NCBI RefSeq assembly: GCF_003130795.1
Contig: NZ_CP029353.1
Coordinates: 821,501 to 885,500, forward strand
Source: Azospirillum thermophilum
Lineage (GTDB): Bacteria; Pseudomonadota; Alphaproteobacteria; Azospirillales; Azospirillaceae
Length of the DNA: 64,000 nucleotides
Direction: 5' to 3'
A model generated the notes under the pieces. The model worked only from the letters and a program-made list of their open reading frames with translations. It was not told where the DNA came from and did not search any database. The translations under genes and the position numbers were made by a program. Positions 28,250 to 42,959 of this stretch are shown one piece after another (within the stretch, counting starts at the first letter, position 1; each line of letters begins with the position of its first letter).

Positions 28250-29404
28250 TTACTTGCCCTCGCGCCAGGCGATCAGGCGGCGGGCCGCCTCGGCGATCGT
28301 CTCCTCGGAGCCGGCGAAGCTGAAGCGCAGGAAGCGCCGGCCGCGGGCAGGGTCGAAGTCGATGCCCGGGGTGCAGGCGATCCCCGTTTCGGCGAGGATC
28401 CGCTTGGCGAGTTCCTCGCTGTCGTCGGTCATGTCCGACACGTCGGCATAGATGTAGAAGGCGCCGTCCGCCGGGGCCATCCTGCCGAATCCGGCCTTCG
28501 GCAGTTCGCGCAGCAGAAGCTCGCGGTTGCGGGCATAGCGGGCGATGTGGCCCTCCAACTCCTCCACGCAGTCGAAGGCGGCGACGGCCGCGATCTGGCT
28601 GATGGTGGGGGCGGAGATGAACAGGTTCTGCGCCAGACACTCGACCGAGCGGATCAGGTCGTCCGGCACCACCATCCAGCCGAGCCGCCAGCCGGTCATC
28701 GAGAAGTACTTCGAGAAGCTGTTGACGATCAGCGCGCGGTCGCTGATCTCCGCCGCCGTCACCGCCTCGGTGCCATAGGTCAGGCCGTGGTAGATCTCGT
28801 CGGAGACCAGGCGGACGCCGTTGGCGTCGCACCAGCGGGACAGGGCGGTCAGCTCGTCCCGGCTCAGCATCGTGCCGGTGGGGTTGGCCGGGCTCGCGAC
28901 GATCAGCCCCTGCACCGGGCGGTCCAGCTTCTCCAGAAGCTCGACGGTCGGCTGGAAGCGATGCTCCGGCCCGGTCGGCAGCTCGACCGGCTCCACCCCG
29001 ATGGCGGTCAGGGTATGGCGGTAGGCGGGATAGCTGGGCGAGGCCATGGCGACCCGGTCGCCCGGATCGAAGGCGGCGAGAAAGCCGAGCTGGAAGGCGC
29101 CCGAAGAGCCGGTCGTTACGCAAACGCGCTGTTCCGGCACCGAAACCTTGTAGCGATCCTGGTACCAGCGGGCGATGGCGCTGCGCAGCGGCGGGATGCC
29201 GAGCGCCGTGGTGTAGCCCAGCGGATCGCTGCCGGCGAGCGCGCGGGTGGCGGCCTCCACCACGCCCTTCGGCGCGCCGGAGGAGGGCTGCCCCACCTCC
29301 ATGTGCAGCACCTCCAGCCCGGCGGCTTCCCGCTCGGCGGCGGCGCGCATCACTTCCATGACGAAGAACGGAGGAATTTGCCCACGCTTAGAAATTCCAG
29401 GCAC
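28250..29404 (-). CDS. Class I/II PLP aminotransferase with element-supplied 5' end
   Basis: 384 residues, full length. PLP lysine in NSFSKYFSMTGWRLGWM, Asn/Tyr ligands in ASPANPTGT and SDEIYHGL, and the C-terminal Arg in FLRFSFAGSEE are all present; probably an aspartate/aromatic-type aminotransferase. The first 10 codons (GTG start, PGISKRGQIP) are encoded by the integrated element, because the phage attachment site lies at codons 13-18. GGAG sits 9 bases before the GTG and an in-frame TAA lies directly before it. The original host start (ATG, MTKPPKVSKRGAIP) is now at 43028, next to ggt. Expression must come from an element or fortuitous promoter. Confidence 0.9.
   Translation of the reverse strand: MPGISKRGQIPPFFVMEVMRAAAEREAAGLEVLHMEVGQPSSGAPKGVVEAATRALAGSDPLGYTTALGIPPLRSAIARWYQDRYKVSVPEQRVCVTTGSSGAFQLGFLAAFDPGDRVAMASPSYPAYRHTLTAIGVEPVELPTGPEHRFQPTVELLEKLDRPVQGLIVASPANPTGTMLSRDELTALSRWCDANGVRLVSDEIYHGLTYGTEAVTAAEISDRALIVNSFSKYFSMTGWRLGWMVVPDDLIRSVECLAQNLFISAPTISQIAAVAAFDCVEELEGHIARYARNRELLLRELPKAGFGRMAPADGAFYIYADVSDMTDDSEELAKRILAETGIACTPGIDFDPARGRRFLRFSFAGSEETIAEAARRLIAWREGK
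29352..29368. other. Left attachment site (attL core)
   Basis: ACTTCCATGACGAAGAA is repeated exactly at 42967-42983 in the same orientation. The match extends nine bases inward with two differences, both at synonymous third codon positions of the aminotransferase frame (Pro codons). Confidence 0.9.
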
Positions 29405-29417
29405 TTAGCGATACTCC

Positions 29418-29446
29418 GTTGCCCACTGGGAAACTATTGGGAAACA
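29418..29446 (+). repeat. Left integrase arm-site pair (TGGGAAAC repeats)
   Basis: GTTGCCCACTGGGAAAC followed by a second GGGAAACA 10 bases later; nearly the same 29-30 bp block recurs at 42839-42868 near the other end. Repeats of this kind close to the core fit arm-type integrase binding sites. Function is inferred. Confidence 0.6.
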
Positions 29447-29486
29447 CAAGCGCGCCGAAAAAGGGCAGCTAGCGCCGCCCTTGGTA

Positions 29487-29684
29487 TCACGTAGCCTGCT
29501 CAAACACCATTGCCCCACTGTTGACCCAGCCAACCACGTCAGAGCGGCGATAGCGGACGGATCGGGTTCCCATTTGAATGGGAGCAGGAAAGCGCCCAGC
29601 GCAGCGCATCCGCCACAGCGTCGTGCGACTCACGCCAAGCATCATCCGCACTTCGGACTCTGTTAAAACCAGCTTCTCAGTCAT
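29487..29684 (-). CDS. AlpA-family excisionase/regulator
   Basis: 65 residues with the AlpA/MerR-like winged helix: LTESEVRMMLGVSRTTLWRM, then GRFPAPIQMGTRSVRYRRSDV, and the family's W at VGWVN. AlpA proteins act as excision directionality factors or activators of integrase genes in P4-like elements. Lies 120 bp inside the left attachment site. Ends in TGA and contains no TAG. In the same frame, a TAG lies immediately before the ATG, so a longer product would arise if that TAG is read; there is no sign that this is intended. Confidence 0.85.
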   Translation of the reverse strand: MTEKLVLTESEVRMMLGVSRTTLWRMRCAGRFPAPIQMGTRSVRYRRSDVVGWVNSGAMVFEQAT

Positions 29685-29893
29685 CTAGCGCCTATCGGAT
29701 TTCCGGTCGCGCGGGATTGCGGACCAAAAAGCCGTTGGGCTTCCGGATCCAAGAGGTTGGGCACCTCCCACATAGAAGGTCGGCAGGTCTCCTCTATAGG
29801 GAGGATTTAGCCCGACCTCCGCATAGCGTGGTCGCTCTTGAGGAACAAAAAGGGAACATGGTATCGTCTGTGCTGGGTTGCGGAGAGGGAACG

Positions 29894-30106
29894 ATGAGGG
29901 CGGAACGATTTGGTACTTTAAGTAGCTACATGGCGCGCGGCGCACGCATCCCGCTCCGCTGCCGCCTATGCGGCCATGCGGCAGATGTCGATCCCGCACC
30001 CCTTGCGGAGCGAATCGGCGCAGACGCCGATCCGAACGCTCTGAACTGGAAGTGTTCACGCTGCGGCGCATTTGGTAGCCAGATCGGCATCAGTCGACCA
30101 AAATGA
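29894..30106 (+). CDS. Small zinc-ribbon protein
   Basis: 70 residues. Two CxxC pairs (LRCRLCGHA and WKCSRCGAF) about 30 residues apart suggest a zinc ribbon. A good ribosome site (GGAGAGGG) lies 4 bases before the ATG; the frame stays open further upstream but without coding character. Ends in TGA and is followed by a hairpin terminator. Similar small zinc proteins are common in temperate phages and their role is mostly unknown. Confidence 0.65.
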   Translation: MRAERFGTLSSYMARGARIPLRCRLCGHAADVDPAPLAERIGADADPNALNWKCSRCGAFGSQIGISRPK

Positions 30107-30110
30107 CCAA

Positions 30111-30128
30111 GGGGCCGAAACCGGCCCC
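30111..30128 (+). terminator. Intrinsic terminator
   Basis: GGGGCCG-AAAC-CGGCCCC followed by TCTGTCT, five bases after the zinc-ribbon gene's stop. Confidence 0.7.
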
Positions 30129-30134
30129 TCTGTC

Positions 30135-30251
30135 TCACCACGCAACGAAGTAACCTCTCTCCCATCCTCCAAGCCGCCGCACCTTACGAAGCGCCGCCCG
30201 CTTCGACATGTGGACGCTCAGTAGGTCATCTCCACTATATACAAGGTACAT
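30135..30251 (-). CDS. Small phage protein, 38 residues
   Basis: MYLVYSGDDLLSVHMSKRAA onward, basic, ending GYFVAW and TGA. A strong ribosome site (AGGAGAAGG) lies five bases before the ATG and just after the stop of the upstream gene at 30264, so the two are coupled. Not recognised. Reads as a real gene because of the ribosome site and operon position. Confidence 0.5.
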   Translation of the reverse strand: MYLVYSGDDLLSVHMSKRAALRKVRRLGGWERGYFVAW

Positions 30252-30263
30252 CGCGCCTTCTCC

Positions 30264-30530
30264 TCACACAGCGGCGCCGCTCGACACCGTGCCGCGAAGC
30301 TCGCGGCACTCCGCCCTAACTGCTTCAAGCTCGGTACGGATCGACGCAGCATAGTTAAGCACATCACAAACAACCGCAACCATCCCGGACATTAGATCCC
30401 GTTCCGAGATGTTTGCTCCAATATCACGCTGTAGCCTATCCAAGTGATCTACAAGAGAATCAAAGGATCCGCTCTCAAACATGCGTGCCTCATCATCATA
30501 TGTGTTATTGTGATAAAAAGTGTTACCCAT
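30264..30530 (-). CDS. Hypothetical phage protein, 88 residues
   Basis: Acidic protein with probable helical segments (SFDSLVDHLDRLQRDIGANI; SIRTELEAVRAECRELRG, likely a short coiled coil near the C-terminus). Ends in TGA. Not recognised. Upstream of its start lies an AT-rich stretch with a TTGACT box. Followed by the 38-residue gene. Confidence 0.55.
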   Translation of the reverse strand: MGNTFYHNNTYDDEARMFESGSFDSLVDHLDRLQRDIGANISERDLMSGMVAVVCDVLNYAASIRTELEAVRAECRELRGTVSSGAAV

Positions 30531-30635
30531 ATCGTTTTATCAAGTCAACGGTAAAAATGCGGCTAAATAATAATATGGTAAAGCCATATTCTGTCCGGCT
30601 CCGCCGGATCATGTGTCGTCAAGGGCCGCGTATTT

Positions 30636-30645
30636 AAAGTACTTT
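30636..30645. promoter_or_regulatory. AAAGTACTTT palindrome, copy 1
   Basis: Ten-base perfect palindrome that recurs at 36882 and 39050 in the element, in the latter two extended outward to 12 and 18 bases. Candidate operator; this copy lies between two gene clusters. Confidence 0.4.
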
Positions 30646-30720
30646 GCCAAGCGCGCGGAGCGAACGGTTTAGGCATTAGAGAGAACCAGCGGATTTCATC
30701 CGGCCACATCCCGCCGCCAA

Positions 30721-30755
30721 AAGAAGGCGCTTCACTTCTGGTGAAGCGCCTTCTT
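30721..30755 (-). terminator. Terminator of the tape-measure operon
   Basis: Perfect 15-bp stem AAGAAGGCGCTTCAC / GTGAAGCGCCTTCTT with a 5-base loop. On the minus strand it directly follows the TAA of the last gene and ends in a T run. Confidence 0.9.
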
Positions 30756-31007
30756 TTAAATTAGGCTGTCTAGAGCATCCTCGGCCGTCTCGACATAAAA
30801 CCGAGCAAAGACGTTCTGCTGTTCCGCATCGTCCACTAGGGTGTTACTCCAGACTTCCTGAGTAACACGCTTGCGAAGATCCGGCTTAATATCCTTCTCT
30901 ATGCACTTATCGACTGCCTTTTTGCTTGCATTTGGCAGCTTCTCCCGACACATCTCGGCAATATCTCCAAGGATAGCCGCTATATAATCTTCTCTTGTGC
31001 TATACAT
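30756..31007 (-). CDS. Hypothetical phage protein, 83 residues
   Basis: Last gene of the tape-measure operon. Mostly helical: MYSTREDYIAAILGDIAEMC, then a KKAVDKCIEKDIKPDL stretch and an acidic C-terminus. The ATG lies five bases after the previous gene's TGA. Ends in TAA at the edge of the operon terminator. Contains no TAG codon. Not recognised. Confidence 0.65.
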   Translation of the reverse strand: MYSTREDYIAAILGDIAEMCREKLPNASKKAVDKCIEKDIKPDLRKRVTQEVWSNTLVDDAEQQNVFARFYVETAEDALDSLI

Positions 31008-31012
31008 TACTC

Positions 31013-31324
31013 TCACACCAAGTTGTTGAAGTGCTGACGAACAATTGCGGAATGCGATCCGTCGCGTGTAGGATCCATCCCGCACGCGATGTCAGCCGCG
31101 AACGCGACAACAAATGTCCCCATCGCCATGCAATCATCCTCTGATTTGTTAAGTCCGCTCTACCAATTACTTTGGCTAAACAGGATGTCAGCCAATTGAT
31201 AAGCAGGCTTAAGTTTACGATGCGCAAGACGTCTAAGCGTATCGCTCGTGCAGTTCTCCATGTATGTCTCATACGCGGCCTTTTTTACGCCGCGAATGCA
31301 TGCCAGTCTCAAAATATTACTCAT
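31013..31324 (-). CDS. Hypothetical phage protein with an in-frame TAG, 103 residues
   Basis: Starts MSNILRLACIRGVKKAAYET with GGATGG upstream and runs to a TGA at 31013. Codon 55 is TAG (plus-strand 31160-31162): the text reads FSQSNW, TAG, SGLNKSEDD and continues for 48 more codons (FVVAFAADIACGMDPTRDGS) with no other stop. Both halves keep the same base composition and the next gene follows closely, so the whole reads as one gene if TAG is sense. Under the standard code only a 54-residue fragment would be made. Not recognised. Confidence 0.7.
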
Positions 31325-31336
31325 CAAGTCCATCCT

Positions 31337-31942
31337 TTATTCTGGTAGCTTGCTAACCACATCAACCCTGAAGCAGCCATTTTTGACGGTGTAGAGCCAC
31401 AGCCGCCCGCCAGAGGCTGTGCGTCCGGCCGTAGAATAGGTTTGGTGTTGCACGAGCGCGGCCTTCTTCAGCAGTTCCGCGCCTCCCTTCGGCGGCAGGG
31501 TCGCGCCGACAAGGGCCGGATACAGGTGGATGCCGTCCCCGAGTTCCCTCACACGGGCGGGGACACAGGTTGCAGTCTGCTCGACGGTGTTGAATTCGAC
31601 CGCTGAGACCTCAGCCGCCCGCACACGCTTGCGCTCAGGATCGTACCCGGCAATCACGTAAAGTTCGCCGTCGTCCAGGTCCCAATAGTCAATGGCCTCG
31701 TCAAGCCCGACGCGGGCAATCTCGCATAGGTCATCGAAGGACGTTGCGTCGGTGGATTCGATGTGATTGACGAGACGCCACGTCACAAGCTGAGTGCCCT
31801 ACCCGCAAAGGGCAATACCCTTTGCGGGTAGACACACTACTTTTGTCATCGCGTGTTTGGGCTGATACTCCAGGTCAAACGCCAGTTCATCGCAGAGGAT
31901 TTCCGCCCTCGCGGCTGTTAATGACAGGTTGAAAATTGACAT
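31337..31942 (-). CDS. Hypothetical phage protein with an in-frame TAG, 201 residues
   Basis: The ATG at 31942 has AAGGA upstream and follows the tape-measure stop by 12 bases. The frame reads MSIFNLSLTAARAEILCDEL, reaches TAG at codon 48 (31799-31801), then continues GTQLVTWRLVNHIESTDATS to a TAA at 31337. The second part is well conserved in character (YVIAGYDPERKRVRAAEV). The TAG lies at the 3' foot of a perfect 14-bp hairpin. Probably a phage morphogenesis accessory; not recognised. Confidence 0.7.
31799..31831 (-). other. Perfect RNA hairpin spanning an in-frame TAG
   Basis: CTACCCGCAAAGGG pairs completely with CCCTTTGCGGGTAG around a 5-base loop. On the coding (minus) strand the last three bases of the 3' arm are the TAG of the 31337-31942 gene. 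No T run follows, so it is not an ordinary terminator. Confidence 0.6.
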
Positions 31943-31954
31943 GTTAGTCCTTCA

Positions 31955-34591
31955 TTAGCTTAGATCAACCGCAACGAATTGCGGAACAATGACAGGGCGC
32001 GCAATGGCAACAAATGCCATTTCTGCCAGCGCCTTCGTGAAGATGTCCTTCAGGCTGTCGGTAAAGTCGCGGAACGTCACCTTCCCGCCCTTCAGCATCT
32101 TGGCAAAAAGGTCTTCCCACGCATCGCCGATATTGTCGAAAGCCCTCAAAAAGGCGCCTTCCATCGTGTTGGTTTGCTTGGCGATGTCGATTGCGGCGCT
32201 CTGATAGGCGTTCACCAGTTCCGGAGTCATCTTTCCGTTGTCGGAGAGGATCTTGAAACTCTGCTGTAGACGATCCAACCCAAGGCGAAGCTTCGTCTCC
32301 CCGTCGCCGTAGTGTTCAAGGATCGACTGCCCTTCCTACGCCGCCTTGGCGTACTCGCGGGAGGCTTCCACGGCTTCCAGCTTCAACCGGATTTCCTCGC
32401 GGGTGGATGCAAGATCCTTGTCCTTCGCGTCCAGTCCCAGCGCGCGAAGCTGTCGCTCCACTTCGATTTCACGGGAGACCTTGGCGTATGCGTCGGCACC
32501 GTCCAGCGTCGCCGCTGCGAGGCGCTTGGTTTCCTCCGTCTCGATTCCCAGATCCTTCGACCGCTTCAACGCCTGTAGCTTGAGCGTTTCCGCTTCGATG
32601 GCGCGGAACCCTGCCTGTAGCTCGTTCAGGCTCACGCCTGCGCGCTGGGCTAGGTCATCCAGCGAAGTGGGAATAATCTTCGCCTGCTTGGCGAAGTTGG
32701 TGAGGAAATCCACGGTGCGTTCAAGCGCCTTTGTATCAAGCACAGTCATGTCGCCCATGGAGAGCGCTTCGGCTGCTACCTTCGCATTGGCGAGTTCAAG
32801 CCGCAAAGCGGAGTATGCTACCTCCGTGCGCCACACGGCTTTTTCTTCCGTCGTCATGGACTCGGCTGCCTTGTTGGCGCGCTCAATCGCCGCGTCGCGG
32901 GTTTGGGTGATGGCGTCCAGCGTGGTCTTGTAATCCTCAGCCGAGATAAAGGGCTTGGACTGGTCCAGCTTCTTAAGCGATTCCTGATATTCCGCGTTCG
33001 CTTTGAAGACCGGATCGTTGGCTTTCCGCAGTTCGGCGGCACCGCGCTTCGCAGTGTCAATCCGCTGCTGCCAAGCCCGTTCGTCGGCTGACATAGCCTA
33101 TTCTCCTGCCTCAACGGCGGAACGGAGCATATCCGTCTGAATTCCATCCAGTTCCTTCACCAGTTCGGCGCGTTGATTCTGGAGCCCCTTCCGCATCCAA
33201 CTGATGGGGTTGTGAGCAATCTGCGAATTAATGGTGTTGATTTGGCTCTACAGGTCAGCAGCGCGTTCCTGCGGCTTTGGACCGGCAAGGAAGTTGTTCG
33301 CCGCTTGAAGGGCTTTCTCCGGGAGCTATAGGAAGAACTTGTACAAGTCAGAGAGATGCAGTTTGTTATCAAGATTGATTAGAAGCTGATCCCACTAATT
33401 CGAGATCCCAGCGTTTATCTGTTCAACGGTCCGGGGAATGGTAGAGAAATCCTTGTTCACCTGATCCGTCATGTTGCGCAGCGCTTTCAACACAACATCG
33501 GTTGTGATTAGCCCCTCGCTGGCAAGGCTCTTCAGTTCCCCGGTCGTTACGCCCATCGTGCGGGCGATCTCCCGAGTCAGGGCGGGCATGTTCTCGGCAA
33601 GGGACCGGTACTCGTCCCCCTGAAGGCGTCCGCTGGCAAGAGCCTGTGACAGCTACGTCAGGGAGGAAGCCGCTTCCTGCGCCGTCTGACCGGACACCTT
33701 GCCCAGCTTCAGGAAGGTTTCGGTAAGGCTGGAAACGTCGCTGTTCGCCAAGCCGATGTCCTTGCCGACACCCGCGAACCGGGCCATGGCCGAACCCACG
33801 TCGCCCACGGCCACGCCAAGGCGGTTCGCGATGGCGACCGTATCGGCGTACAGCACCTTGGCCGATTCCATGCTGCCGCTCGAAGCGTTCAGCTTCCCGA
33901 TCAGCAGGTTCATGGCGTCAACCGGCCTTGCCATAGCCGCGCCCGCTGCAAGGGCCGCTGCGCCCAGTACGGTGAAGCCCAAGGCAACCCCGCCGATGAC
34001 ACCCACAGCCGCACCAGCGGCCACGCCAGCAGCGCGTAGGCCCGTTGCAACCGCGCCCACGTCTCGTGCGACGCCGCCCGCCGCAGGGGACAAGGTGCCA
34101 AGTGCGGAGATGACTCCACCAAATCCCCGGTTCAGGGTCGGGAGAAGGCCGTTGGTGCGCGCGATCTCATGATTGAGAGTGTTCATGCTGCGGGCGAATT
34201 CGCCCTACGCCTTCGCGCCTTCCATGGACCGGGCACCGAACGTCTGGAGGGTGCTGCTGTAAGTGGACAGGGCTGCGCGGGCGCGGTTGATCATATCCGC
34301 GTTGCCGTCCATCTATCGCCCAATGCGCTGAACCATAGATTCGGTGCGGGTAAGAGCGGCCTGATAGGCGCGCTCATTGGCAAGAGCCTGCCGAGCGATA
34401 TCGACGGCGTTGCGCCCGGCATTCGATCCACCCGAGCTACCGGGACGGAAGTTGGAACCACCCGGCGCGTTGGCGCGGGCCTGGATATCGGACAGGCGCC
34501 GGACCTTGCGTTCCGTCTCGGTGACGAACTGATCGACCTGCTTCTAAGCTGCGGAGAAATCGATACTCGCCGAAAGAACAAAATCACTCAT
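31955..34591 (-). CDS. Phage tail tape-measure protein with nine in-frame TAG codons
   Basis: 878 codons from ATG (MSDFVLSASIDFSAA; AGAGGAG eight bases upstream) to TAA. It holds a lambda-like tape-measure region: a long Ala/Gly hydrophobic stretch (residues ~160-210), the conserved LSQALASGRLQGDEYRSLAE block, coiled-coil segments, and the C-terminal AWEDLFAKMLKGGKVTF block. TAG occurs at codons 16, 93, 129, 313, 399, 422, 448, 498 and 752; there is no in-frame TAA or TGA and no frameshift. At codon 313 the residue before LSQALASG is usually Gln in relatives known to me, which suggests TAG means Gln. Under the standard code it would be ten fragments. It sets tail length in siphovirus- and myovirus-type phages. 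Confidence 0.85.
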
Positions 34592-34826
34592 AATCATAAC
34601 TCCTCTGATGTTCTTGTGGAGCTATCACAGCGTGATCGCGAAAAAAATCTACTGAGATCAAAATCTATCCGCTGCGCCCCCTCCCGCGTCGCTCAACATA
34701 ACCAGCGAACATTCCTTTTCTGAACGCTCGCCGGATCGTCTCGGGATGCTTACCAACTAAGCTCGCAAACTGATCTACAGTCAAAAATGACCGTACAGTT
34801 TCGGAATATTCTTGAAGAAATAACAT
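34584..34826 (-). CDS. Small helix-turn-helix protein with an in-frame TAG, 80 residues
   Basis: ATG at 34826 with a strong AGGAGG upstream. Reads MLFLQEYSETVRSFLTVDQF, then ASLVGKHPETIRRAFRKGMF, an HTH_17-like helix-turn-helix, then VERRGRGRSG, TAG (codon 54), ILISVDFF and on to a TGA at 34584, eight bases inside the tape-measure start. The part after TAG supplies the expected final beta strand of such excisionase-type folds, so the TAG looks like sense. First gene of the tape-measure operon. Confidence 0.7.
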
Positions 34827-34852
34827 AGCTCCTCCTGACTAAAACACGCAGT

Positions 34853-34858
34853 ATTATA
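34853..34858 (-). promoter_or_regulatory. Promoter -10 box of the tape-measure operon
   Basis: Perfect TATAAT on the minus strand about 25 bases upstream of the HTH gene; the -35 region (TTCCAA) is weak, which suggests an activator. Confidence 0.5.
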
Positions 34859-35076
34859 CGACATTTTGCTGTATATTGGAAGTCATTGGAGCAATATGCT
34901 TGAGTAATTAAAGAGATTTAGTAGGTCAGCGGTTAGCATCGGGAGTGTATCCGCTCCAAATGCACCATCCGCGCCGATAGCGAATCCAGTTTGATCAACC
35001 TGCGATCCGGGCGCTGGATCGAAACGGCGGTGTTGGTGTAATACTATTGAACCAACATTTCTCGTGGCAGGTAAAA

Positions 35077-35436
35077 ATGCTCGTTAGGGCAGCAATAGCT
35101 ATAGCGCTAATCGTGGCCGCAACCTCCGCTGCAAACGCCGCGCAGAAGACTAATAACGCCAAAATGATTCAGCAGTGCGATCAAACTCTTCGAGAGTATC
35201 TGGTGGCTCCGCTGGAGGCAAAGAAGATGTATGGAGGCTACGGGCAGTATCCGGACGGAAGAGTGTTCGTGAGTATATGCTTCCAAGCCCGCAACTCCAT
35301 AGGAGGTTTCGGAACGGCTGGTGGAGAATGCATATTCAATGTATCCGGCATCATGACGGATTCTCATATGGGACAGTCATCTGTGCAGAACGCGGCTATA
35401 TGCGCGATGGCGGAAAGTCTATCTAAGAAAAAATAG
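35077..35436 (+). CDS. Secreted small protein (phage cargo), 119 residues
   Basis: Signal peptide (MLVRAAIAIALIVAATSAANA) and a mature part with three cysteines (QQCDQTL, VSICFQARN, GGECIFNV, then AICAMAES) and a Gly-rich centre. Ribosome site GGCAGG. It stops at TAG, and a terminator hairpin starts directly behind that TAG; reading through would add only seven residues before TAA. So here TAG probably acts as stop, an important exception in the element. Function unknown; position and secretion suggest a lysogenic-conversion (moron) gene. Confidence 0.6.
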   Translation: MLVRAAIAIALIVAATSAANAAQKTNNAKMIQQCDQTLREYLVAPLEAKKMYGGYGQYPDGRVFVSICFQARNSIGGFGTAGGECIFNVSGIMTDSHMGQSSVQNAAICAMAESLSKKK

Positions 35437-35456
35437 GAACCTTCTGGTTCCTTTTG
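35437..35456 (+). terminator. Terminator of the secreted-protein gene
   Basis: GGAACC-TTCT-GGTTCC followed by TTTTGTT, starting immediately after the TAG at 35434-35436. Confidence 0.75.
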
Positions 35457-35502
35457 TTAACCGTTGACACGCCTCTGACGCAAGCGCCAATGGTATAAGG
35501 AA

Positions 35503-35526
35503 GACCACACTTCGGTGTGGTCTTTT
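35503..35526. terminator. Second, bidirectional terminator
   Basis: GACCACAC-TTCG-GTGTGGTC followed by TTTT on the plus strand. It also lies downstream of the minus-strand antirepressor remnant. Confidence 0.75.
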
Positions 35527-35539
35527 GATCCTCCATTTT

Positions 35540-36101
35540 CTATGCCTTCTTCAGCAACTCGCGGAAGTCAGCTACGAACTTGTTCCTCCTGATTCTTCTG
35601 GAGGATGTCGTAGTCGGCCTTGAGTGCGACGACCTCACCGAACTCCTTCTTCATCTCCCCACGCAGTTCGGCCTTCGCCTGCTCCAGCATCTTGCGGAAG
35701 TCAGGCATGAACTGCTCTGCCGCCGGATGGACGTATGCGCCGTCCTTCTCGATGGAACCCGCGACCGTCATGTTCATGAAGGTCTGGAACTCACGGGCGG
35801 CGGGAGTATTGGAGCGCTGGGCGACGCGGCGAACGGCGGTAGCGTTGATGAACAGCGGGGGACGGCCGCGCTTTTGAGCATAATTTATGATTTTAACCTC
35901 ATCGTCGCGCGCGCCCTGCTGCTTGAGGTAGCCGCTGGCTGCGTTAGTGTTGATGTAGAGCGGCGGACGGCCACGACGATTTTCCGAAACGACGTTTTGG
36001 AAATTCCTGACTTCATCGTCCTTGACGCCGTGGATCGCGGTGCGATCCGGCGAACAGCAGCAGCGTTCAGGAAGGCCGGTTCGTGAACGCTGCTGTTGAT
36101 C
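35540..36101 (-). pseudogene. Antirepressor C-terminal gene lacking its Bro-N domain
   Basis: An open minus-strand frame without a clear start. It contains two imperfect repeats of about 35 residues (DDEVRNFQNVVSEN then RRGRPPLYINTNAASGYL; DDEVKIINYAQK then RGRPPLFINATAVRRVAQRS), continues NTPAAREFQTFMNMTVAGSI and a coiled-coil C-terminus. A further partial copy (FLNAAAVRRIAPRS) lies upstream in another frame. Near 35580 the frame either stops at TGA (QEEQVRS) or, with one base removed, continues NKFVADFRELLKKA to a TAG before a terminator. The FINATAVRRVAQRS part is the end of a Bro-N domain; the rest of that domain lies inverted at 36521. Confidence 0.45.
35794..35852 (-). repeat. 59-bp inverted repeat, left copy
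   Basis: Exact reverse complement of 36758-36816. Encodes FINATAVRRVAQRSNTPAAR in frame in the minus-strand antirepressor remnant. Confidence 0.9.
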
Positions 36102-36520
36102 GGCGGGGCTGCATGGCGGAAACGCCGTTTTTGGGGCGCTTTTTGGGGAGCGAGAACCGCGCGAAAAGCTAGGGTTTCCAACGGGTTGAAGGCGATTTTG
36201 AGTAGCTGTGGAGCTTGGAACCCTATACGCACTATACGTATTTGGAAAAAAAAACGTGTGTTAGCTATACATACAAAAAAAAAGGAAATACCTGTGTGAG
36301 AATAGGTCCCAAGGTACATAGGTCCCCTTTTTTCTTAAAATAGCTAGGATTTTCAACGGTTTGAGAGGTGGGGAGCGTCGTCTAGCAGGCCCGTTTTTCG
36401 GCCATTTTCGCCTAGTAGGCCCCCTCCACGAAGCCCATTCCTGTTCTTTTATTGCTTCTCAACGTGCTATTTTGTTCAATCATTACTTGCACCCCCCTAC
36501 CACTCGTTTGCGTCCGCGCG
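36102..36520. other. AT-rich non-coding spacer of the antirepressor module
   Basis: About 420 bases with no convincing gene. It has poly-A runs and two imperfect direct repeats, GCTAGGGTTTCCAACGGGTTGA (near 36168) and GCTAGGATTTTCAACGGTTTGA (near 36342), plus AGGCCC-rich short repeats. May hold promoters or operators for the flanking genes. Confidence 0.4.
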
Positions 36521-36883
36521 ATGACGCGCGGTGCAGACGCCTTTGGTGGGAAGCCCGTCCGAACCGTCACCGGCAACGGTGAGACTTGGTTCTGCGCCAT
36601 GGATGTGTTCAAGGCGCTTGGGAATGACAACCCCAACGTCGCTGAACTGACCAAATGGTACGGCGTCGAAAATGGCGAAGCGCGCGTTCTGACTAAGAAG
36701 CAGGCTAACATCAGGACGCCTGAGCTTAGGGCCGCTTTCCCCAACCGTGGCCTGACCTTCATCAACGCTACCGCCGTTCGCCGCGTCGCCCAGCGCTCCA
36801 ATACTCCCGCCGCCCGCTTTTACCAATGGGTCGATAGGACGCAGGCATCATTACTGAAGCGGCATTCTGCCAGTGTCCAGTAA
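36521..36883 (+). CDS. Bro-N domain antirepressor
   Basis: 120 residues: a Bro-N domain with FGGKPVRTVTGNGETWFCAM, DVFKALGNDNP and FINATAVRRVAQRS, followed by ARFYQWVDRTQA. Bro-N proteins are phage antirepressors or DNA-binding regulators, normally with a separate C-terminal domain, which this copy lacks. The 59 bp at 36758-36816 are repeated, inverted, in the neighbouring minus-strand gene that has a C-terminal domain but lacks the Bro-N start. Ends in TAA. The upstream frame is open to 36452 but this ATG fits the domain start. Confidence 0.7.
   Translation: MTRGADAFGGKPVRTVTGNGETWFCAMDVFKALGNDNPNVAELTKWYGVENGEARVLTKKQANIRTPELRAAFPNRGLTFINATAVRRVAQRSNTPAARFYQWVDRTQASLLKRHSASVQ
36758..36816 (+). 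repeat. 59-bp inverted repeat, right copy
   Basis: Identical to the reverse complement of 35794-35852, with 905 bp between. Starts on a codon boundary in both genes. Confidence 0.9.
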
Positions 36884-36892
36884 AGTACTTTA
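36881..36892. promoter_or_regulatory. TAAAGTACTTTA palindrome, copy 2
   Basis: Twelve-base perfect palindrome overlapping the Bro-N gene's stop. Confidence 0.4.
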
Positions 36893-36958
36893 CGGAAGAA
36901 GGTCGGTTCCGATCTCCTATGCCAGACGCCCGAAACCATGCTTCAACGATCTGTTGAC

Positions 36959-36982
36959 ATCCTCCCTCTATAGGGAGGATTT
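36959..36982. repeat. Hairpin repeat ATCCTCCC-TCTATA-GGGAGGAT
   Basis: Perfect 8-bp stem. Its 18-base right part CCTCTATAGGGAGGATTT also occurs at 29791-29808. Confidence 0.5.
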
Positions 36983-37038
36983 GGCTTCCAGGGATCTGTC
37001 ATCGCTCCGCATGAAGAATTCCGACCTATTCTCTCGCG

Positions 37039-37248
37039 CTACGCAGTGCCCATCTCCCGCGTATAGCTTCTTGCGACTTCGAGGGGCCAACACTCTCCTT
37101 CGTACTCAAGATCAAGCTGAAGAAGTCGGCGCTCTACGCGAAGGAGTAGCAGCTTTGTCTCCGCGCCATGGCAGGCGCGACTATGCTCGCGCACCAGACA
37201 GACTGCCCTACAGGTGGGGGATTCGCCTGTTACCATGCTGCGCGCCAT
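37039..37248 (-). CDS. Hypothetical phage protein, 69 residues (or 101 if its TAG is sense)
   Basis: ATG with a strong ribosome site (TTGGAGG, seven bases upstream). Basic, with four cysteines (PTCRAVCLVREHSRACHG, GECWPLE), possibly a zinc or HNH-type fold. It ends in TAG at 37039; the frame then stays open for 31 more codons (to TGA at 36943) including MTDPWKPNPPYRG, so this may be a seventeenth in-frame TAG. I did not count it among the sixteen, because nothing in the extension is clearly conserved. Confidence 0.45.
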   Translation of the reverse strand: MARSMVTGESPTCRAVCLVREHSRACHGAETKLLLLRVERRLLQLDLEYEGECWPLEVARSYTREMGTA

Positions 37249-37430
37249 AGCCGTACCTCCAACTTCCAGAGTCGGGAGATTCTACTACTTTTAACGTATC
37301 TGGCGCAGCACGTAATTCGAGGGATGAGAGCGGGAATACGGATATCCACCCGCCGCCGCGCACATAAACTAAAGCCCAGCTTACGCAGCTTTACCTTCAA
37401 GCGAGCGGTGCCCTGTTGCTCGCGGTGATA

Positions 37431-38030
37431 TTAGACCATATCTACCAGCTTGCGCTTTGCATCACTGTCGCCTTGAATGTACCGCTGCGTGGTGGCGAGC
37501 GACGAATGCCCGGCCAACTCCTGAACGTCGCGGAGCGATCCACCGGCTTCCACAACACGCTTGGCGGCTTTGGTGACGAAGGTGCGGCGCCCCGAGTGGG
37601 AAGAACACCCGTCCATACCAAGCGCGTCATAGAGCCGATGAAACCACACCGTGACGGACGCAGCGCTCATGCCGGGGCCGCGTTCGGAGTGGATCACGGG
37701 CTTATCGGTTCCGGCTTTCCCGTCGCGCAGGGCGATGGTGTGAAGGTCTACCAGCGCAGCGCGCAGTTCGGTGTTCAGAGGGATGGTCCGTCCGCCGCGC
37801 TTCCCCTTGGAAGCCTTGTTTTCCAGGGCGATTGCGTCCCCCACGGTGCCGTTACTGTCCGTGACCATGCCCCAGGTCAAGCCCGCGATCTCCTTTGCGC
37901 GCAGCCCCGCCTTGACGCTCAGCAGCACCATGACGCGGTCGCGGGCGGGATAGCGCGTCCCCTCGACGTGGGAGAGGACGGCCTTGATCTGCTTGTCGCT
38001 GAGCGTCTTCGCCTGTTTGCCAAGTGCCAT
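37431..38030 (-). CDS. Small tyrosine recombinase (FimB-sized)
   Basis: 199 residues made up almost only of the catalytic domain. The catalytic residues can be seen: Arg in KAGLRAKEIAGLTW, Lys in ENKASKGKRGGRTIPL, HSGRR, and His/Tyr in GHSSLATTQRYIQG. It lacks the usual N-terminal core-binding domain of phage integrases and matches the size of FimB/FimE-type DNA invertases. Ribosome site GGGAGG. Ends in TAA with no internal TAG. Because a second, full-size integrase sits at the element end, this one could act on the nearby 59-bp inverted repeats; this is inference. Confidence 0.8.
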   Translation of the reverse strand: MALGKQAKTLSDKQIKAVLSHVEGTRYPARDRVMVLLSVKAGLRAKEIAGLTWGMVTDSNGTVGDAIALENKASKGKRGGRTIPLNTELRAALVDLHTIALRDGKAGTDKPVIHSERGPGMSAASVTVWFHRLYDALGMDGCSSHSGRRTFVTKAAKRVVEAGGSLRDVQELAGHSSLATTQRYIQGDSDAKRKLVDMV

Positions 38031-38950
38031 AAATCGGGCCTCCCTGCGCCCTGGTACCGATAAGGTTTCGACCGCTGTTCCAATTTTCTTATCAGTTTAG
38101 CGGGTGCTTGGCAATGCTAATGTGCTGAAGCCCTTGCTGCACCTAGACTGATAATAGAACATAAATTTCCTTATCAGTCCAAAGTTATGCAAAGCGCTAC
38201 ACCTGCAAAGTTGCCCATCTATCCCCTTGCGCCAGAAGGTCATACGCTGCTAAGAGCCAATCTAGCGCTAAAGCTAGGCAACCTTATAGCGTTGTTCCGA
38301 GTAAAGTAAGTAAAGCATAAGCGCCATACCCGGCATTGCATGATATAGTTCTACCTATTCACGATTGGTAACGAAAACGTCACTTATCGCTACCAATTTT
38401 GTTAAGTAAATCTCTCCGGAGGGACCCAGAGGGGTAGTACCCCCACTGTCCGAAAACTGCGACAGGTGGCGCACATGGCGCACGCTAATGCTTAATCACA
38501 GGATCCAGGTTCGAGTTATAAGGAACCAGAGTTGAAACCACAATTGTGCATAAAGGATCCAGGTTTCAACGCACGCCACCGTTCGGACAATACCGCTACG
38601 AATACAATATATAGCACGGAAAACACAATATTTGGTTCTCAACGTCTCTGGTTCGGGGGCTTAGTGCAAGAAAGTCCATCTTGCGGGGGACTTCCATCAG
38701 GCGCATCGTTACAAGAAAACCTAGACGCGGCAACGTGTTGGACGCACTTTTGGGGGATCTACGGACCTTGGGTGCCTCGGAGCCTGTGTTCTACATTATG
38801 ATTCTAAGAACAATATGCGTATAGATTTTGGTGTGCTCCACCCCCATCGGCACAGTTTCACGTCGTTGCATTGCATTCTGTGGCAAGAAAGTGATAGAAT
38901 AATGCAAAGTCGTGGACAAAACTAGCGACGATGAAAAGGAGAATTGCACA
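38031..38950. promoter_or_regulatory. AT-rich non-coding control region
   Basis: About 920 bases with no gene I can support. Four copies of a TTATCAGT-like motif (38059, inverted; 38089; 38147, inverted; 38171) lie upstream of the recombinase. Further in are a GGGGTA-G-TACCCC palindrome near 38430, a 12-base direct repeat AGGATCCAGGTT (near 38503 and 38554) and an inverted pair GTTGAAACC/GGTTTCAAC. A TTGCAT-18-TAGAAT promoter precedes the next gene. It may hold operators, a replication origin or a small RNA; no tRNA fold found by eye. Confidence 0.45.
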
Positions 38951-39850
38951 ATGAAAATAAATGAGTTTTGCAAGCAAAACGGATTGGGTGTTAGAGCCTT
39001 CAAGGCATTACATCTTTCCGCAGTTCAGAGAGGAGACGAAATCGCGCGTAAAGTACTTTACGCCCTAGGTCCAGACGGTGGATGGGAACTGGCTGACCCA
39101 GGCTAGGCTAGGGAGTGGCTTTACTATGAGCGCGCAAGGGGAAGCAAACAACATTCTGGAGCAAAGACGCGAGCGGAACCAAAAAAGCCTTAGACTTTTG
39201 ATCATATTGAACCTCCGGCGGGCTTTATCCGGGTACCCAGTGCTTCGCGCTATGCAATTAAATTCAGCGACGTGCCGGTTATCATCGACCTTAAAACAGG
39301 CCAGCCAGTCCACACCTTCCAAGTCAATAGTGCTGCCCGCGTGATGCTTCACGTCTACATTGCCGGTGTTCGCAAGACGATGAGATGGGCGCGGTTCGTA
39401 TCTGCCGCAGCCGCACAGGTAGCGGTAGGCGTTCCGGCGGACCTATCACGCCTTGAAGCCTCGCACATTAATCATGCTAGCGACTCCATGGAACTTTCTG
39501 AAGTGACCCTAGAGCCAAGATCGCGTAATCTTGCACGCGAAAAGTACCGTGGAAAACTAACCACGCAGAAAGTTAAGGAGATCGCGGCAGTCGCTCAGAA
39601 CGAACTGAATATATCCCAGCTAACTGCTGCTGACTTCCCCAAGAATTACAATCCGTTTAAACCAACCCTATCGAAATCCGTGATTGTGGCGTTTGTGAAG
39701 CGCCAAGCCGCAGCACACTCTGTGTCCCAAACAACTATCCGTAAATTAATCAGCTTCACACACTCAAACGAGTCGTTCAATGCTCTGATGCGCGACGCAT
39801 ATCCAGACTTCCAAGATGTTATTATGCGGTCATTGAGCAAAAGCGAATAA
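38951..39850 (+). CDS. Hypothetical phage protein with two in-frame TAG codons, 299 residues
   Basis: ATG with AAGGAG upstream. Reads MKINEFCKQNGLGVRAFKAL ... GPDGGWELADPG, TAG (codon 52), AREWLYYERARGSKQHSGAK, TAG (codon 81), TFDHIEPPAGFIRVPSASRY and continues without break to TAA at 39850. Under the standard code only 51 residues would be made and the rest would lack a ribosome site; the in-frame GTG at 39272 has none. The middle part (FSDVPVIIDLKTGQPVHTFQ) is beta-rich; the C-terminal half is helical and basic, perhaps nucleic-acid binding. Not recognised. Confidence 0.7.
39046..39063. promoter_or_regulatory. 18-bp palindrome around AAAGTACTTT, copy 3
   Basis: GCGTAAAGTACTTTACGC, perfectly symmetrical, inside the coding sequence of the 38951 gene. 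Longest of the three copies. Confidence 0.4.
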
Positions 39851-39891
39851 TTTCTTGGAAAGAAAGCGGCGAGATTACTATCTTGCCGCTA

Positions 39892-39920
39892 TTGCGGCAT
39901 TGACTTTGCAGTGTTATAAT
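39892..39920 (+). promoter_or_regulatory. Sigma70-type promoter of the small-gene cassette
   Basis: TTGCGG, 17-base spacer, TATAAT, about 50 bases upstream of the 39971 gene. Confidence 0.65.
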
Positions 39921-39970
39921 ATTGTCGAAACAGTAAGTTCTCTCCCTCAACAAACAAATAAAGGACTATG

Positions 39971-40147
39971 ATGAATCATGATGAACTAATTTCCCTTGAC
40001 GACGCCGCTCGATACTGCGGCGTCACCAAGGCAACAATCCGCAGCCGAATTCGGCGCTTCGGCTTTACCTCGATCTAGCGCTTTGGCCGACGCATCTACC
40101 TACGGCGCAAAGAATTCCTTGCCAGCCCCATTTCCTTTGCACTGTGA
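39971..40147 (+). CDS. Excisionase-like helix-turn-helix protein with an in-frame TAG, 58 residues
   Basis: Starts MNHDELISLDDAARYCGVTK with AAGGA five bases before the ATG. The helix-turn-helix is ATIRSRIRRFGF; then TSI, TAG (codon 36), RFGRRIYLRRKEFLASPI and TGA. Winged-helix Xis/AlpA-like proteins need exactly this last strand (RFGRRIYLRR) to bind DNA, so the part after TAG is clearly the rest of the same domain. First gene of a cassette of overlapping genes. Confidence 0.75.
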
Positions 40148-40156
40148 GTAAAAGAA

Positions 40157-40819
40157 ATGCAATATCACGATCCTAAATTCTTCAAGGGCGCGGATGGCAG
40201 CTAGCTTGTGTCGCGCTTCCCGTATCCGGGAGAATACACCGTAACGTCCCACGCCAGCCCTTTGGAGCGCGCCATTGCTCAAGCGGCGGGACTTCGCATT
40301 GTAGAACCTGACGCAGAGGGGCGAATTACTCAGCCTCTCTCTGAGTATTTGGCTGATGACAATAGCCTTCTGGACCGGAAGTGGACCGCGGTAGTGGATG
40401 AGATTCGCAACGGCCTAACTCCACCCGCCACCGAACCCGACGCCAAGCCCACGATGGAACGTGCACCCGCGCGCTTCATCCGCGGCGACCTTGGCGGTAT
40501 TGAGATAACTCGCTTTGCAGACGGCAGCGAGTGCACCCACTCGACTGGAACGCGCAGCCGCTTCGTTGAGCCTGCACTGGAAATCAAACCCCGGACCTTC
40601 GATCCGTTCAAGACGGATATGCAGGGGTATGTTGAAGCGCGCAGCAAGGGCCTGACCCCTTCAGTCCATATCAACACATCGTCCGGCCGAGCCGATCTTT
40701 CCGAGTCGTTTGACCTCGACGCATACCGGGAGTACCGGGAGGCGACCGCCTCACGCGGATGGCTGGACGACTGGCGCGCAGCGCGCGAACGTGGAGAGGT
40801 ACCCGAGGTGCCCGCATGA
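40157..40819 (+). CDS. Hypothetical phage protein with an in-frame TAG, 220 residues
   Basis: Starts MQYHDPKFFKGADGS nine bases after the previous stop, meets TAG at codon 16 and continues LVSRFPYPGEYTVTSHASPL to a TGA at 40819. The long part has PYPGEYTVTSHASPLERAIA and ends in a helical GWLDDWRAARERGEVPE. If TAG were stop, only a GTG at 40208 with no ribosome site could start the rest. Overlaps the next gene by four bases (ATGA). Not recognised. Confidence 0.7.
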
Positions 40820-41049
40820 TCACCCTCCCGCACTGCTTCGACGCTGATATCCCGGAGGGCTTCTCGCCCTCACCGGATGCGCAACGTCCTGCCCCTCTAC
40901 CGGACGGACCCGCTACAGGCCCAACACAGCCTGATTCAAAAGACGCCCCGTCCCCCACACGCCGCGAACTGTTCGCAGACCTCAACCGGCTGAAGCGCCG
41001 CGCGCACCGCGCGCCTGGAGAGGAGCCCAAGACGTGGGGCGCGCCATGA
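40816..41049 (+). CDS. Hypothetical phage protein, 77 residues
   Basis: MITLPHCFDADIPEGFSPSP followed by a Pro-rich linker and a basic helix (RRELFADLNRLKRRAHRA). Coupled to both neighbours by ATGA overlaps. Ends in TGA. Not recognised; tight packing is typical of phage accessory genes. Confidence 0.6.
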   Translation: MITLPHCFDADIPEGFSPSPDAQRPAPLPDGPATGPTQPDSKDAPSPTRRELFADLNRLKRRAHRAPGEEPKTWGAP

Positions 41050-41210
41050 CGCGCGCCGAGGCACTCGTGATCATCGCGCTCGATACCATCCTCCATCTGA
41101 GAGACGAAACCATCGCCCAGCGCCAGCGCGCGCAAGACGCCAAACCTCGCACGAAGCGGCGGAAGCGCCGCAAGGTGAAGGCCAGGAAGAGGCTGGCACG
41201 CCATGTATGA
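41046..41210 (+). CDS. Hypothetical basic phage protein, 54 residues
   Basis: MTRAEALVIIALDTILHLRD followed by a very basic tail (TKRRKRRKVKARKRLARH). Overlaps the previous gene by four bases and the next by eight. Ends in TGA. Probably nucleic-acid binding by charge alone; not recognised. Confidence 0.55.
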   Translation: MTRAEALVIIALDTILHLRDETIAQRQRAQDAKPRTKRRKRRKVKARKRLARHV

Positions 41211-41406
41211 GCCTGATTTCACCCCCTTTGGCGACGGCGACGGCGAATATGCCGCCATCAGAATCCCCGGTTGCGCGCCCATCGTCGTCATTCGCGAGCG
41301 GGTGCGCGGCTATAGCTGGTTTAAATGCCCTGCCGCTATCGGCGGCGCGCTTGTTCTGGTGCTCAACCCCAACACCCGACAATACGACGTAAAAGGGTAT
41401 TGTTAA
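41203..41406 (+). CDS. Hypothetical phage protein, 67 residues
   Basis: MYEPDFTPFGDGDGEYAAIR, a beta-rich small protein ending VLVLNPNTRQYDVKGYC and TAA. Start overlaps the previous gene by eight bases, so translation is coupled. Not recognised. Confidence 0.55.
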   Translation: MYEPDFTPFGDGDGEYAAIRIPGCAPIVVIRERVRGYSWFKCPAAIGGALVLVLNPNTRQYDVKGYC

Positions 41407-41408
41407 GC

Positions 41409-41549
41409 ATGAGGGGGTGCCCCACAGACGCCCTGTTCGCGCGGCAGCACGCTTCGCCGGAAGCTCCCGGCCCTGTAGCGCGCTCCGATCACTTCATGCG
41501 AGGCTCATACCGCCGCGCGTCGGCACTCAAGACGTCCTGTCCGCCTTGA
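41409..41549 (+). CDS. Possible small ORF, 46 residues
   Basis: Starts two bases after the previous TAA (MRGCPTDALFARQHASPEAP) and ends in TGA shortly before a terminator. No ribosome site of its own, so it would depend on re-initiation. May not be real. Confidence 0.3.
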   Translation: MRGCPTDALFARQHASPEAPGPVARSDHFMRGSYRRASALKTSCPP

Positions 41550-41560
41550 TCTACCACCAC

Positions 41561-41592
41561 AACGCCCCACCGCACCAATGCGGCGGGGCGTT
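41561..41592. terminator. Bidirectional terminator between the cassette and the integrase
   Basis: AACGCCCC-CCGCA stem, CCAA loop, TGCGG-GGGGCGTT arm, with one mismatch pair. Confidence 0.85.
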
Positions 41593-41610
41593 GTCGCTGG
41601 GGGATAAAAA

Positions 41611-42771
41611 TCACAGCGACCGCAGGTAATCGCGCCACTTCTCCATAACAGCGCGCTTCGCCTCCATGTAGGCGAATTGATTGTAGTGTCGCGACGTTAC
41701 ATCACCAAATGTATGGTTAAGAACTCGTTTCAAATCTTCTAGGCCAACGCCTAGTTCTGCGAGGTTAGTTGTCATCGTACGCCTTAAATCGTGCGCTGTG
41801 AAGTTTGGAACGATATTCCTCATATCGTTGTAATCTCTTACCGTATGGGACAAAGAACGTGGATTGTATAGTTCATCTGTCTTCGGATTGACGAAGTAGA
41901 AGCCGCTCTTCGTTGCTTCTCCGAGAAGTTCGATGTGCCATTCAGTCAGGGGGAGGACGTGGATTTGTCCGTTCTTCGTCCGGTTTCCCTGAAGAGTCCA
42001 TGTCCTCTCAACAAGATCAATCTCGCTCTTGTGAATGAAAAGACACTCGGACTTCCGTTGTCCTGTTGCGATAATCCAGCGAATTGCCCGGCGCATTGGG
42101 TCGGCATTTGCCGCTTCGGTGTTGAGGTACCGCCAGAAGTCCTTAAGTTCTTGTTTGGACAGGTAGCGGTCCCGCCGCTCCACTGGCGCAGGCATCTTCA
42201 TGCCCGCCATCGGAGAGAACTGGATAAGCTGTTCTTCTACCGCATGGTTTAGGATGGCGCCTAGGTACTGCTTCACGAAGCGCGCCATGGACTCTTTCCC
42301 TTCGTCCATGTAGCGGGCAATTACGTCTTTAGCGTCTTTGCGCGTGAACTCGCCCACATCGATTGATCCGACGTGCGGTATTATCGATGTCCGAATCGTT
42401 CGTGCACGGTCGTTGGCTGTCTTGTTTCGCTGGAAAGCCGCGCTGGCGATATAGTCTTCAGCCACTTCGGCAATCGTCTTCGACGCCTTCGACGCCTTCG
42501 ACGCCTTCGCGCCGTGCGTGGCTCCCTCCGTGCCGGATTGCTCCTTAGCCGCTTCGGCTGCAATTCGGGCATCCTTCACGCCCATCGTAGGAAACTTGCC
42601 AAGGGTTACGGTTTTGATTGCCTTGCCGACTCGGAACCGAGCAACCCAGACCTTCGAGCCATTATCACCGGCACCGACGCGCAGCCACAGGCCAGGAACG
42701 ATATCGTCTTTGAAGTCCGTCCGCGCCTGGACCTTAAGCCCACGAACGGCTGTGTCTGTCAGCCTTGGCAT
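41611..42771 (-). CDS. int: Tyrosine integrase of the element (DUF4102 N-terminus)
   Basis: 386 residues from the ATG at 42771, chosen for GGGAGG six bases upstream and the family start MPRLTDTAVRGLKVQAR. N-terminal arm-binding DUF4102 domain, SAM-like core-binding domain, and the catalytic domain with Arg in ATGQRKSECL, AHDLRRTM (HxxR), NHTFGDVTSRHYNQF (His, Tyr). Just inside the right attachment site. A 9-bp tandem repeat encodes KASKASKASK in the linker. No TAG codon, ends in TGA. Catalyses integration into the aminotransferase gene. Confidence 0.92.
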   Translation of the reverse strand: MPRLTDTAVRGLKVQARTDFKDDIVPGLWLRVGAGDNGSKVWVARFRVGKAIKTVTLGKFPTMGVKDARIAAEAAKEQSGTEGATHGAKASKASKASKTIAEVAEDYIASAAFQRNKTANDRARTIRTSIIPHVGSIDVGEFTRKDAKDVIARYMDEGKESMARFVKQYLGAILNHAVEEQLIQFSPMAGMKMPAPVERRDRYLSKQELKDFWRYLNTEAANADPMRRAIRWIIATGQRKSECLFIHKSEIDLVERTWTLQGNRTKNGQIHVLPLTEWHIELLGEATKSGFYFVNPKTDELYNPRSLSHTVRDYNDMRNIVPNFTAHDLRRTMTTNLAELGVGLEDLKRVLNHTFGDVTSRHYNQFAYMEAKRAVMEKWRDYLRSL

Positions 42772-42838
42772 GGGTACCCTCCCGATCATTTTGACCGGGC
42801 GGAGCTTACGCTTCCCTGTTTCCCATATCAAATGTCAT

Positions 42839-42868
42839 GTTGCCCATTGGGAAACTTTTTGGGAAACA
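42839..42868 (+). repeat. Right integrase arm-site pair (TGGGAAAC repeats)
   Basis: GTTGCCCATTGGGAAAC then GGGAAACA, nearly identical to 29418-29446. An inverted GTTTCCCA lies at about 42819. Overlaps the integrase promoter region. Confidence 0.6.
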
Positions 42869-42959
42869 GGGGCGGATCACGGTGGACAGGGTGAAACCAG
42901 TGCATTCTATAAGCAGTTGAAATCACGGCTATATTGGTTTGCGCTGGTTTCGGTTTGTT

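Follow-up and report, generated by a model that had tools for sequence, protein, structure and literature searches.

A 64,000-nucleotide stretch of the Azospirillum thermophilum genome (G000:C2:821501-885500, hereafter the window) carries an integrated element of about 13.7 kb in which, to judge from comparison with related elements, the codon TAG very probably means glutamine (Gln) in genes that are functional. Most of these codons lie in a phage tail tape measure gene, which is accompanied by a gene for a small adjacent protein (the partner). As a whole, the evidence makes it reasonably probable that this is a satellite-like element with its own tape measure and partner, in which TAG is written for Gln and decoding depends on a helper phage.

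An earlier sequence-only reading of the window had described 16 in-frame TAG codons in seven genes on both strands, and all 16 were reproduced exactly at the same plus-strand positions (Table 1). The seven genes contain no inner TAA or TGA and actually end with one of these two codons, and the integrase and the AlpA-type regulator are free of in-frame TAG, as that reading had also stated. TAG accounts for 28.8% of the stop trinucleotides in the element, and the probability that 16 of 16 would be TAG by chance is about 2e-9. In the tape measure gene nine of the 880 codons are TAG (32336, 33098, 33248, 33326, 33395, 33653, 34205, 34313, and 34544), alongside 31 CAG and six CAA as the other codons of Gln type.

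The same tape measure gene occurs in two other genomes, G011 and G068, the latter in the same genus as G000; it carries eight TAGs in its N-terminal part in G011 and seven in G068 and no other inner stops, and the C-terminal part of the G011 gene lies on a separate contig and lacks TAG. A scan of GTDB contigs gave matches only in Azospirillum sp. B21 and "Roseomonas genomospecies 6" ATCC 49961 (taken as G068 and G011, respectively). The search of related genomes proposed by the sequence-only reading has thus found sister elements that are TAG-rich as well. Alignment of the window tape measure with that of G011, its nearest relative (relationships were judged by pairwise identities), comprises 569 codons with four TAG/TAG pairs, three TAG/CAG, three CAG/TAG, one CAA/TAG and one TAG/GCC, to which the C-terminal part adds one TAG/CGG; alignment with G068 (835 codons) shows three TAG/TAG, three TAG/CAG, two CAG/TAG and five pairs with codons other than those of Gln. 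Pairs consistent with Gln amount to 11/13 between the window and G011, 8/13 between the window and G068, and 10/14 between G068 and G011. Over the 17 tape measure columns that contain TAG, this codon alternates with CAG or CAA (e.g., TAG/CAG/TAG, CAG/TAG/CAG, and CAA/TAG/CAA) and one column has TAG in all three elements, so that the other proposed check, the residue found at the TAG sites on alignment, returned exchange with the Gln codons of sister elements. In the partner gene the TAG at 31799 faces TAG in G011, Gln in the full-length proteins P0121 and P0124, and Asn in G068, and a second TAG of the G011 partner corresponds to Gln in all seven aligned proteins. The full-length tape measure protein P0001 has Gln at seven of the 17 TAG columns, 13 of the 40 columns with only CAG or CAA, and 35 of 880 positions overall.

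The assignment to Gln is made because TAG is swapped with CAG and CAA at the same sites under purifying selection. The ratio of non-synonymous to synonymous substitution rates (dN/dS) for the tape measure is 0.20 between the window and the G011 N-terminal part (569 codons), 0.19 between the window and G068 (835 codons) and 0.14 between G068 and G011, and that of the partner gene is 0.12 between the window and G011 (200 codons). Parsimony on 566 codons aligned three ways assigns 33 synonymous and eight non-synonymous codon changes to the window lineage. Neutral simulation (own mutation spectrum, random placement) gave mean non-synonymous changes of 26, 80, and 148 against the 8, 37, and 61 observed, and in each of the three lineages none of 4000 runs produced so few; here the ancestral codon was taken only where the other two lineages agree, which favours conserved codons. 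Stops in pseudogenes are non-random, according to PMC8629427, and tests of constraint therefore matter. The combination that the sequence-only reading had named as fatal to recoding, namely sister strains that carry sense codons at the TAG positions while this copy is silent and decaying, was not encountered: in the sisters some of the sites are CAG and others TAG, and purifying selection acts on the window copy. The element is recoded, not decaying, and the recoding has been functional in evolution.

Several observations weigh against the assignment to Gln. TAG pairs with other amino acids represent 5/13 between the window and G068, 2/13 between the window and G011, and 4/14 between G068 and G011; the TAG of the G068 partner faces Ala in both the window and G011; and the tape measure of G014, a TAG-free sister, has Gln at 3/17 TAG columns vs. 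10/36 columns with only CAG or CAA. P0001, P0121, and P0124 are protein records, compared at the protein level only. The TAG of the 220-amino-acid (aa) gene (40202) is matched by P in both relatives, that of the 80-aa helix-turn-helix (HTH) gene (34665) by E in G011 and K in G068 on inspection by eye, and aligned Gln was found at none of six TAG sites in the primase; these three genes are more diverged. In addition, TAG also works as a stop within the element, where the gene at 35077-35436, missing from the sequence-only reading, terminates with TAG (35434-35436) followed by a terminator-like hairpin. Finally, the G011 tape measure is probably interrupted by an insertion sequence (IS), which would make this copy broken now; it is split over two contig ends (the right ends of L015 and L016) that have in common an IS-like inverted repeat (TCGTGTCCC...CGTGGTGTAGGA).

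The label "amber-recoded phage" given by the sequence-only reading stands in its first part, as sister elements and TAG-free relatives indicate Gln for TAG, but is not supported in its second, neither head and packaging genes nor a suppressor tRNA having been found. Of 19 distinct open reading frames (ORFs) scanned in the window, which included only some of the small ORFs, none matched a capsid, portal, terminase, tail-tube, baseplate or lysis family, and the tape measure and partner are the only genes detected from the head, packaging and tail set of a phage. The element has an integrase, an AlpA-type regulator and attachment site (att) repeats, which are traits of satellites, and a tape measure gene without other detected tail genes, a trait of tape-measure-bearing satellites. 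It is therefore probably a satellite rather than a prophage remnant.

Amber recoding is known from phages with suppressor tRNAs, the best evidence coming from gut phages. Code-15 phages have experimental support, and the phenomenon is described as especially common among phages that infect Firmicutes and Bacteroidetes (PMC9523058); in the view given in PMC10879173, suppressor tRNAs bring about a code switch for lysis and structural genes. Code-15 phages (e.g., crAss-like) resemble the window element in that TAG means Gln in several genes, including late or structural ones, and the host keeps the standard code, but differ from it in that it is a 13.7-kb integrated element of Azospirillum-type Alphaproteobacteria in which neither head genes nor a suppressor tRNA were detected. 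According to PMC12987554, the satellites known as phage-inducible chromosomal island-like elements (PLE) place their own tape measure in chimeric tails, and putative tape measure (tmp) genes are found in PLE-like elements and capsid-forming phage-inducible chromosomal islands (cf-PICIs). The Vibrio cholerae PLE can be likened to the window element by gene content, both being satellite-type elements with a tape measure gene and a small partner gene, but here the partner, for which a proteasome fold is predicted, is not designated a tail assembly chaperone, and the tape measure is written with TAG. No paper joining phage satellites with recoding, or dealing with a suppressor tRNA in Azospirillum, was found in the literature searched (most subscription papers lay outside its coverage), and in the accessible part of the SAR11 phage paper PMC6811365 stop codon reassignment appears only in the reference list.

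The alternative that survives best, although it is unlikely, regards the element as the remnant of a free-living code-15 phage that integrated and lost its head genes and suppressor tRNA, leaving the TAGs as fossils. This would agree with the lack of such genes now, with the probable interruption of the G011 copy, with a poorly coding stretch of the element (window 34.9-38.5 kb) where an inverted repeat lies along with a BRO-N piece and the second recombinase, and with the lack of a primase. G011 and G068 additionally carry a primase/helicase, which was not found in the window element and whose only homolog in G000 is on another contig, a point that also weighs against the satellite reading. 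However, HTH, tape measure, partner and 220-aa gene are common to all three elements, none of which has detected head genes, and the G011 element (att in tRNA-Arg, 51-bp repeat) occupies an insertion site different from that of the window element. The constraint on the window lineage likewise argues against a fossil, as does the existence of the G014 element (C11, about 16–32 kb), whose tape measure is 38–42% identical and whose gene order (tape measure, partner, two small ORFs, integrase) is similar to that of the window element, from which it differs in having no TAG in the tape measure; G014 and G068 show a limited gene set of the same kind. Moreover, 50,697 phage records contained no close relative (617 records had distant tape measures, all below 60% identity) and no relative of the partner, and viral-contig scans, which depended on a few short peptide patterns, detected no relative of tape measure or partner. 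Proteins of Caulobacter phages match the G011 primase at about 32%.

The host, which the sequence-only reading had described as stopping at TAG, does so in 17 of 78 sampled long ORFs rich in GC at third codon positions, and release factor 1 (RF1) scored above the cut-off in all three hosts. In G000, 54 of 55 tRNA matches were typed and none had the anticodon CUA, the 55th being an att remnant, of tRNA-Lys type, that belongs to another element; two copies of tRNA-Gln(CUG) lie in tandem. ARAGORN and Rfam found no tRNA in the window and G068 elements and, in the G011 element and a second element of G000, tRNAs only at the ends (tRNA-Arg and tRNA-Lys), and a relaxed cloverleaf scan, which recovered 25 of 25 known tRNAs tried, detected no suppressor tRNA in these four elements. 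A CUA-tRNA pattern (canonical T-loops only and, family-wide, short variable loops only) matched in 81 of 82 family genomes, with no UAG reader among the loci typed: 28 common-form loci are tRNA-Arg(UCU), which act as a positive control, and 14 matches of other forms are not tRNAs according to ARAGORN. In G011, 13 of 72 tRNA matches were typed, and G068 was covered by the pattern and its element only. One apparent CUA tRNA in G000 and G011 (TCTAA...GTTCGAATC) was rejected, ARAGORN identifying it as tRNA-Arg(UCU) read one base off; the remaining matches of the first pattern were tRNA-Gln(CUG), tRNA-Glu and one locus that is no tRNA. With RF1, common TAG stops and no UAG-reading tRNA found, the host is not expected to read TAG as sense.

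A suppressor encoded in cis or by the host that escaped recognition (a CUA tRNA that has diverged, a tRNA-Gln that is edited or modified, or some other means of readthrough) is slightly less likely than the phage remnant. In its favour, all searches assume known tRNA shapes, and G000 has the tandem tRNA-Gln(CUG) pair; against it stand the negative scans of the four elements and the 54 typed tRNAs of G000, and nine successive TAGs demand efficient suppression, which should harm a host with so many TAG-ending ORFs. Plain pseudogene decay with a C-to-T bias converting CAG to TAG is very improbable: Gln is mostly CAG, C>T represents 21 of 64 nucleotide changes in the window lineage and the absence of new TAA or TGA alone is non-significant in the neutral simulation (P 0.66, 0.25, and 0.14), but purifying selection acts in all three lineages, there are zero frameshifts over about 2,300 codons, TAGs are common to copies at dS 0.5 to 1.4 and also stand opposite CAA, TCG, GAA, and AGC, and 28/28 inner stops being TAG (tape measure and partner, three elements) has p about 2e-5 under C-to-T change only.

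There remains a suppressor supplied in trans by a helper phage, which is favoured by a small margin over all other sources taken together. More tentatively, and with somewhat less than even confidence, the codon reassignment may serve as a helper sensor, the tape measure being translatable only in cells in which UAG has been made a Gln codon by a helper phage. In an uninfected cell the TAG-bearing genes would be silent; a helper phage would bring a Gln-inserting amber suppressor tRNA; the tape measure and partner would then be made and become part of the tails that are hijacked, in the manner of the PLE satellites and their tape measure. The borrowed code would in this way be a gate that opens only with the helper. 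This proposal is weakened by the fact that neither helper phage nor suppressor tRNA has been seen, so that the step of supply in trans rests on absence.

The distribution of the TAGs bears on gating. In the integrases none of 33 Gln codons is TAG vs. 28 of 148 in tape measure and partner (p 0.003), whereas the primase (3/36) shows no significant difference (p 0.15). Within the tape measure, 23 of the 86 Gln codons that precede codon 510 or thereabouts are TAG vs. one of the 44 that follow (p 0.0003, with the cut chosen post hoc), and this TAG-rich early part fits a gate early in a late gene. Two points detract from this interpretation: the start of the G068 integrase was set downstream of a TAG, and a longer start changes the integrase count to 1/35 (p 0.019); and TAG-free tape measures, through recombination, may be the origin of the difference between the N- and C-terminal parts, instead of gating. 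The tape measure is a mosaic, window and G068 being 85–98% identical at about alignment columns 481–720 and 26% near the end, where the window sequence matches the G011 C-terminal part instead of G068. Such swapping of the tail end may follow the helper.

The partner is modeled with a proteasome-beta fold. Asp18 and Lys34 are nearly invariant and 12 of the 13 aligned rows have Ser/Thr at position 2, positions that may correspond to the proteasome active-site residues Thr/Ser1, Asp17 and Lys33 after removal of Met. A search of PDB sequences with the partner returned no significant match, and one PHROG label, "terminase large subunit" (a 218-position family), was matched by the partner in G068 (E 1.4e-6) and G014 (4e-4). 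In other Alphaproteobacteria a distant partner homolog (about 20% identity) comes directly after a tape measure gene in G457, in G215 and, judged by eye, in G396; these have the same gene pairing as the window element but differ in lacking inner TAG. Lambda gpH is trimmed, and by analogy the partner may trim or process the tape measure, which is a guess.

Surveys of wider sets located inner stops in few tape measure genes. Among the 15 matches listed from 82 family genomes they occur only in the window, G011 and G068; among those listed from a 61-genome set, to which G068 does not belong, only in the window and G011; and among 17 matches listed in 15 of 385 class genomes, where at most two tape measure candidates were scored per genome, only in the copy of the window. 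P0126, a metagenomic partner homolog of 174 aa, starts just past the G068 TAG site, like the annotated 174-aa B21 protein P0125 (in length), hinting at a further recoded copy. In G035 (C5 243–283 kb; L018, L138) a tape measure remnant, partner and integrase adjoin what by eye resembles a full prophage (terminase, portal, and capsid) beside guaA. The second G000 element (C1, about 498.3–513.7 kb; L045 1857–17228) lies between tRNA-Lys and a 48-bp copy of the tRNA end; it has a Hachiman defence pair, HamA/HamB (PADLOC E 2e-110 and 0, with the profiles covered almost in full), together with a primase frame of 941 aa whose three inner TAGs have no Gln partner at their sites.

The layout of the window element is given in Table 1. 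It is inserted in an aminotransferase-like gene of the host, at the 5' end (window 29352–29404 and 42940–43060), and gives that gene a new N-terminus, the displaced original N-terminus (MTKPPKVSKRGAIPPFFVMEV) being located at the right end.

Table 1. Features of the integrated element (window coordinates; all TAG positions refer to the plus strand).
Feature	Position	Strand	Remarks
Whole integrated element, about 13.7 kb	29352..43007		Bounded by direct repeats; GC from about 0.70 down to 0.48-0.60
17-bp exact direct repeat	29352-29368 and 42967-42983		41-base match at 80% extends to 43007
AlpA-type regulator/excisionase, 65 aa, no TAG	29487..29684	-	Pfam PF05930 E 2.7e-8; PHROG excisionase
109-aa ORF, no TAG	30756..31085	-	By eye resembles L016 8955-9242
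106-aa ORF, 1 TAG (31160)	31013..31333	-	
Tape-measure-adjacent partner, 201 aa, predicted proteasome-beta (Ntn hydrolase) fold, 1 TAG (31799)	31337..31942	-	
Phage tail tape measure protein, 880 aa, 9 TAG, ends TAA	31955..34597	-	Pfam TMP_3 PF20155 E 2.7e-46; PHROG tape measure
80-aa HTH protein, 1 TAG (34665)	34584..34826	-	Directly upstream of tape measure gene, overlapping
119-aa protein, N-terminal hydrophobic stretch, ends in TAG	35077..35436	+	
72-bp inverted repeat, 92% complementary	35794-35865 and 36745-36816		In region of BRO-N piece
Second, short tyrosine recombinase, 199 aa, no TAG	37431..38030	-	Pfam PF00589 E 9e-22
299-aa protein, 2 TAG (39104, 39191)	38951..39850	+	No family match
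59-aa HTH/excisionase-like protein, 1 TAG (40076)	39968..40147	+	
220-aa protein, 1 TAG (40202)	40157..40819	+	Homologs in both sister elements
Tyrosine integrase, 406 aa, no TAG	41611..42831	-	PHROG integrase E 6e-66; Pfam

These results describe recoded genes in satellite-like elements of Azospirillum-type Alphaproteobacteria, with no tRNA reading the codon found in element or host. Standard annotation fragments tape measure genes of this kind, and satellites of this sort may therefore be missed. If a helper performs the decoding, virus and parasite would have a genetic code in common, which would provide a control switch for the hijacking of tails; and if the codon does act as a sensor of the helper, undiscovered amber-recoded phages of Azospirillum would be implied.

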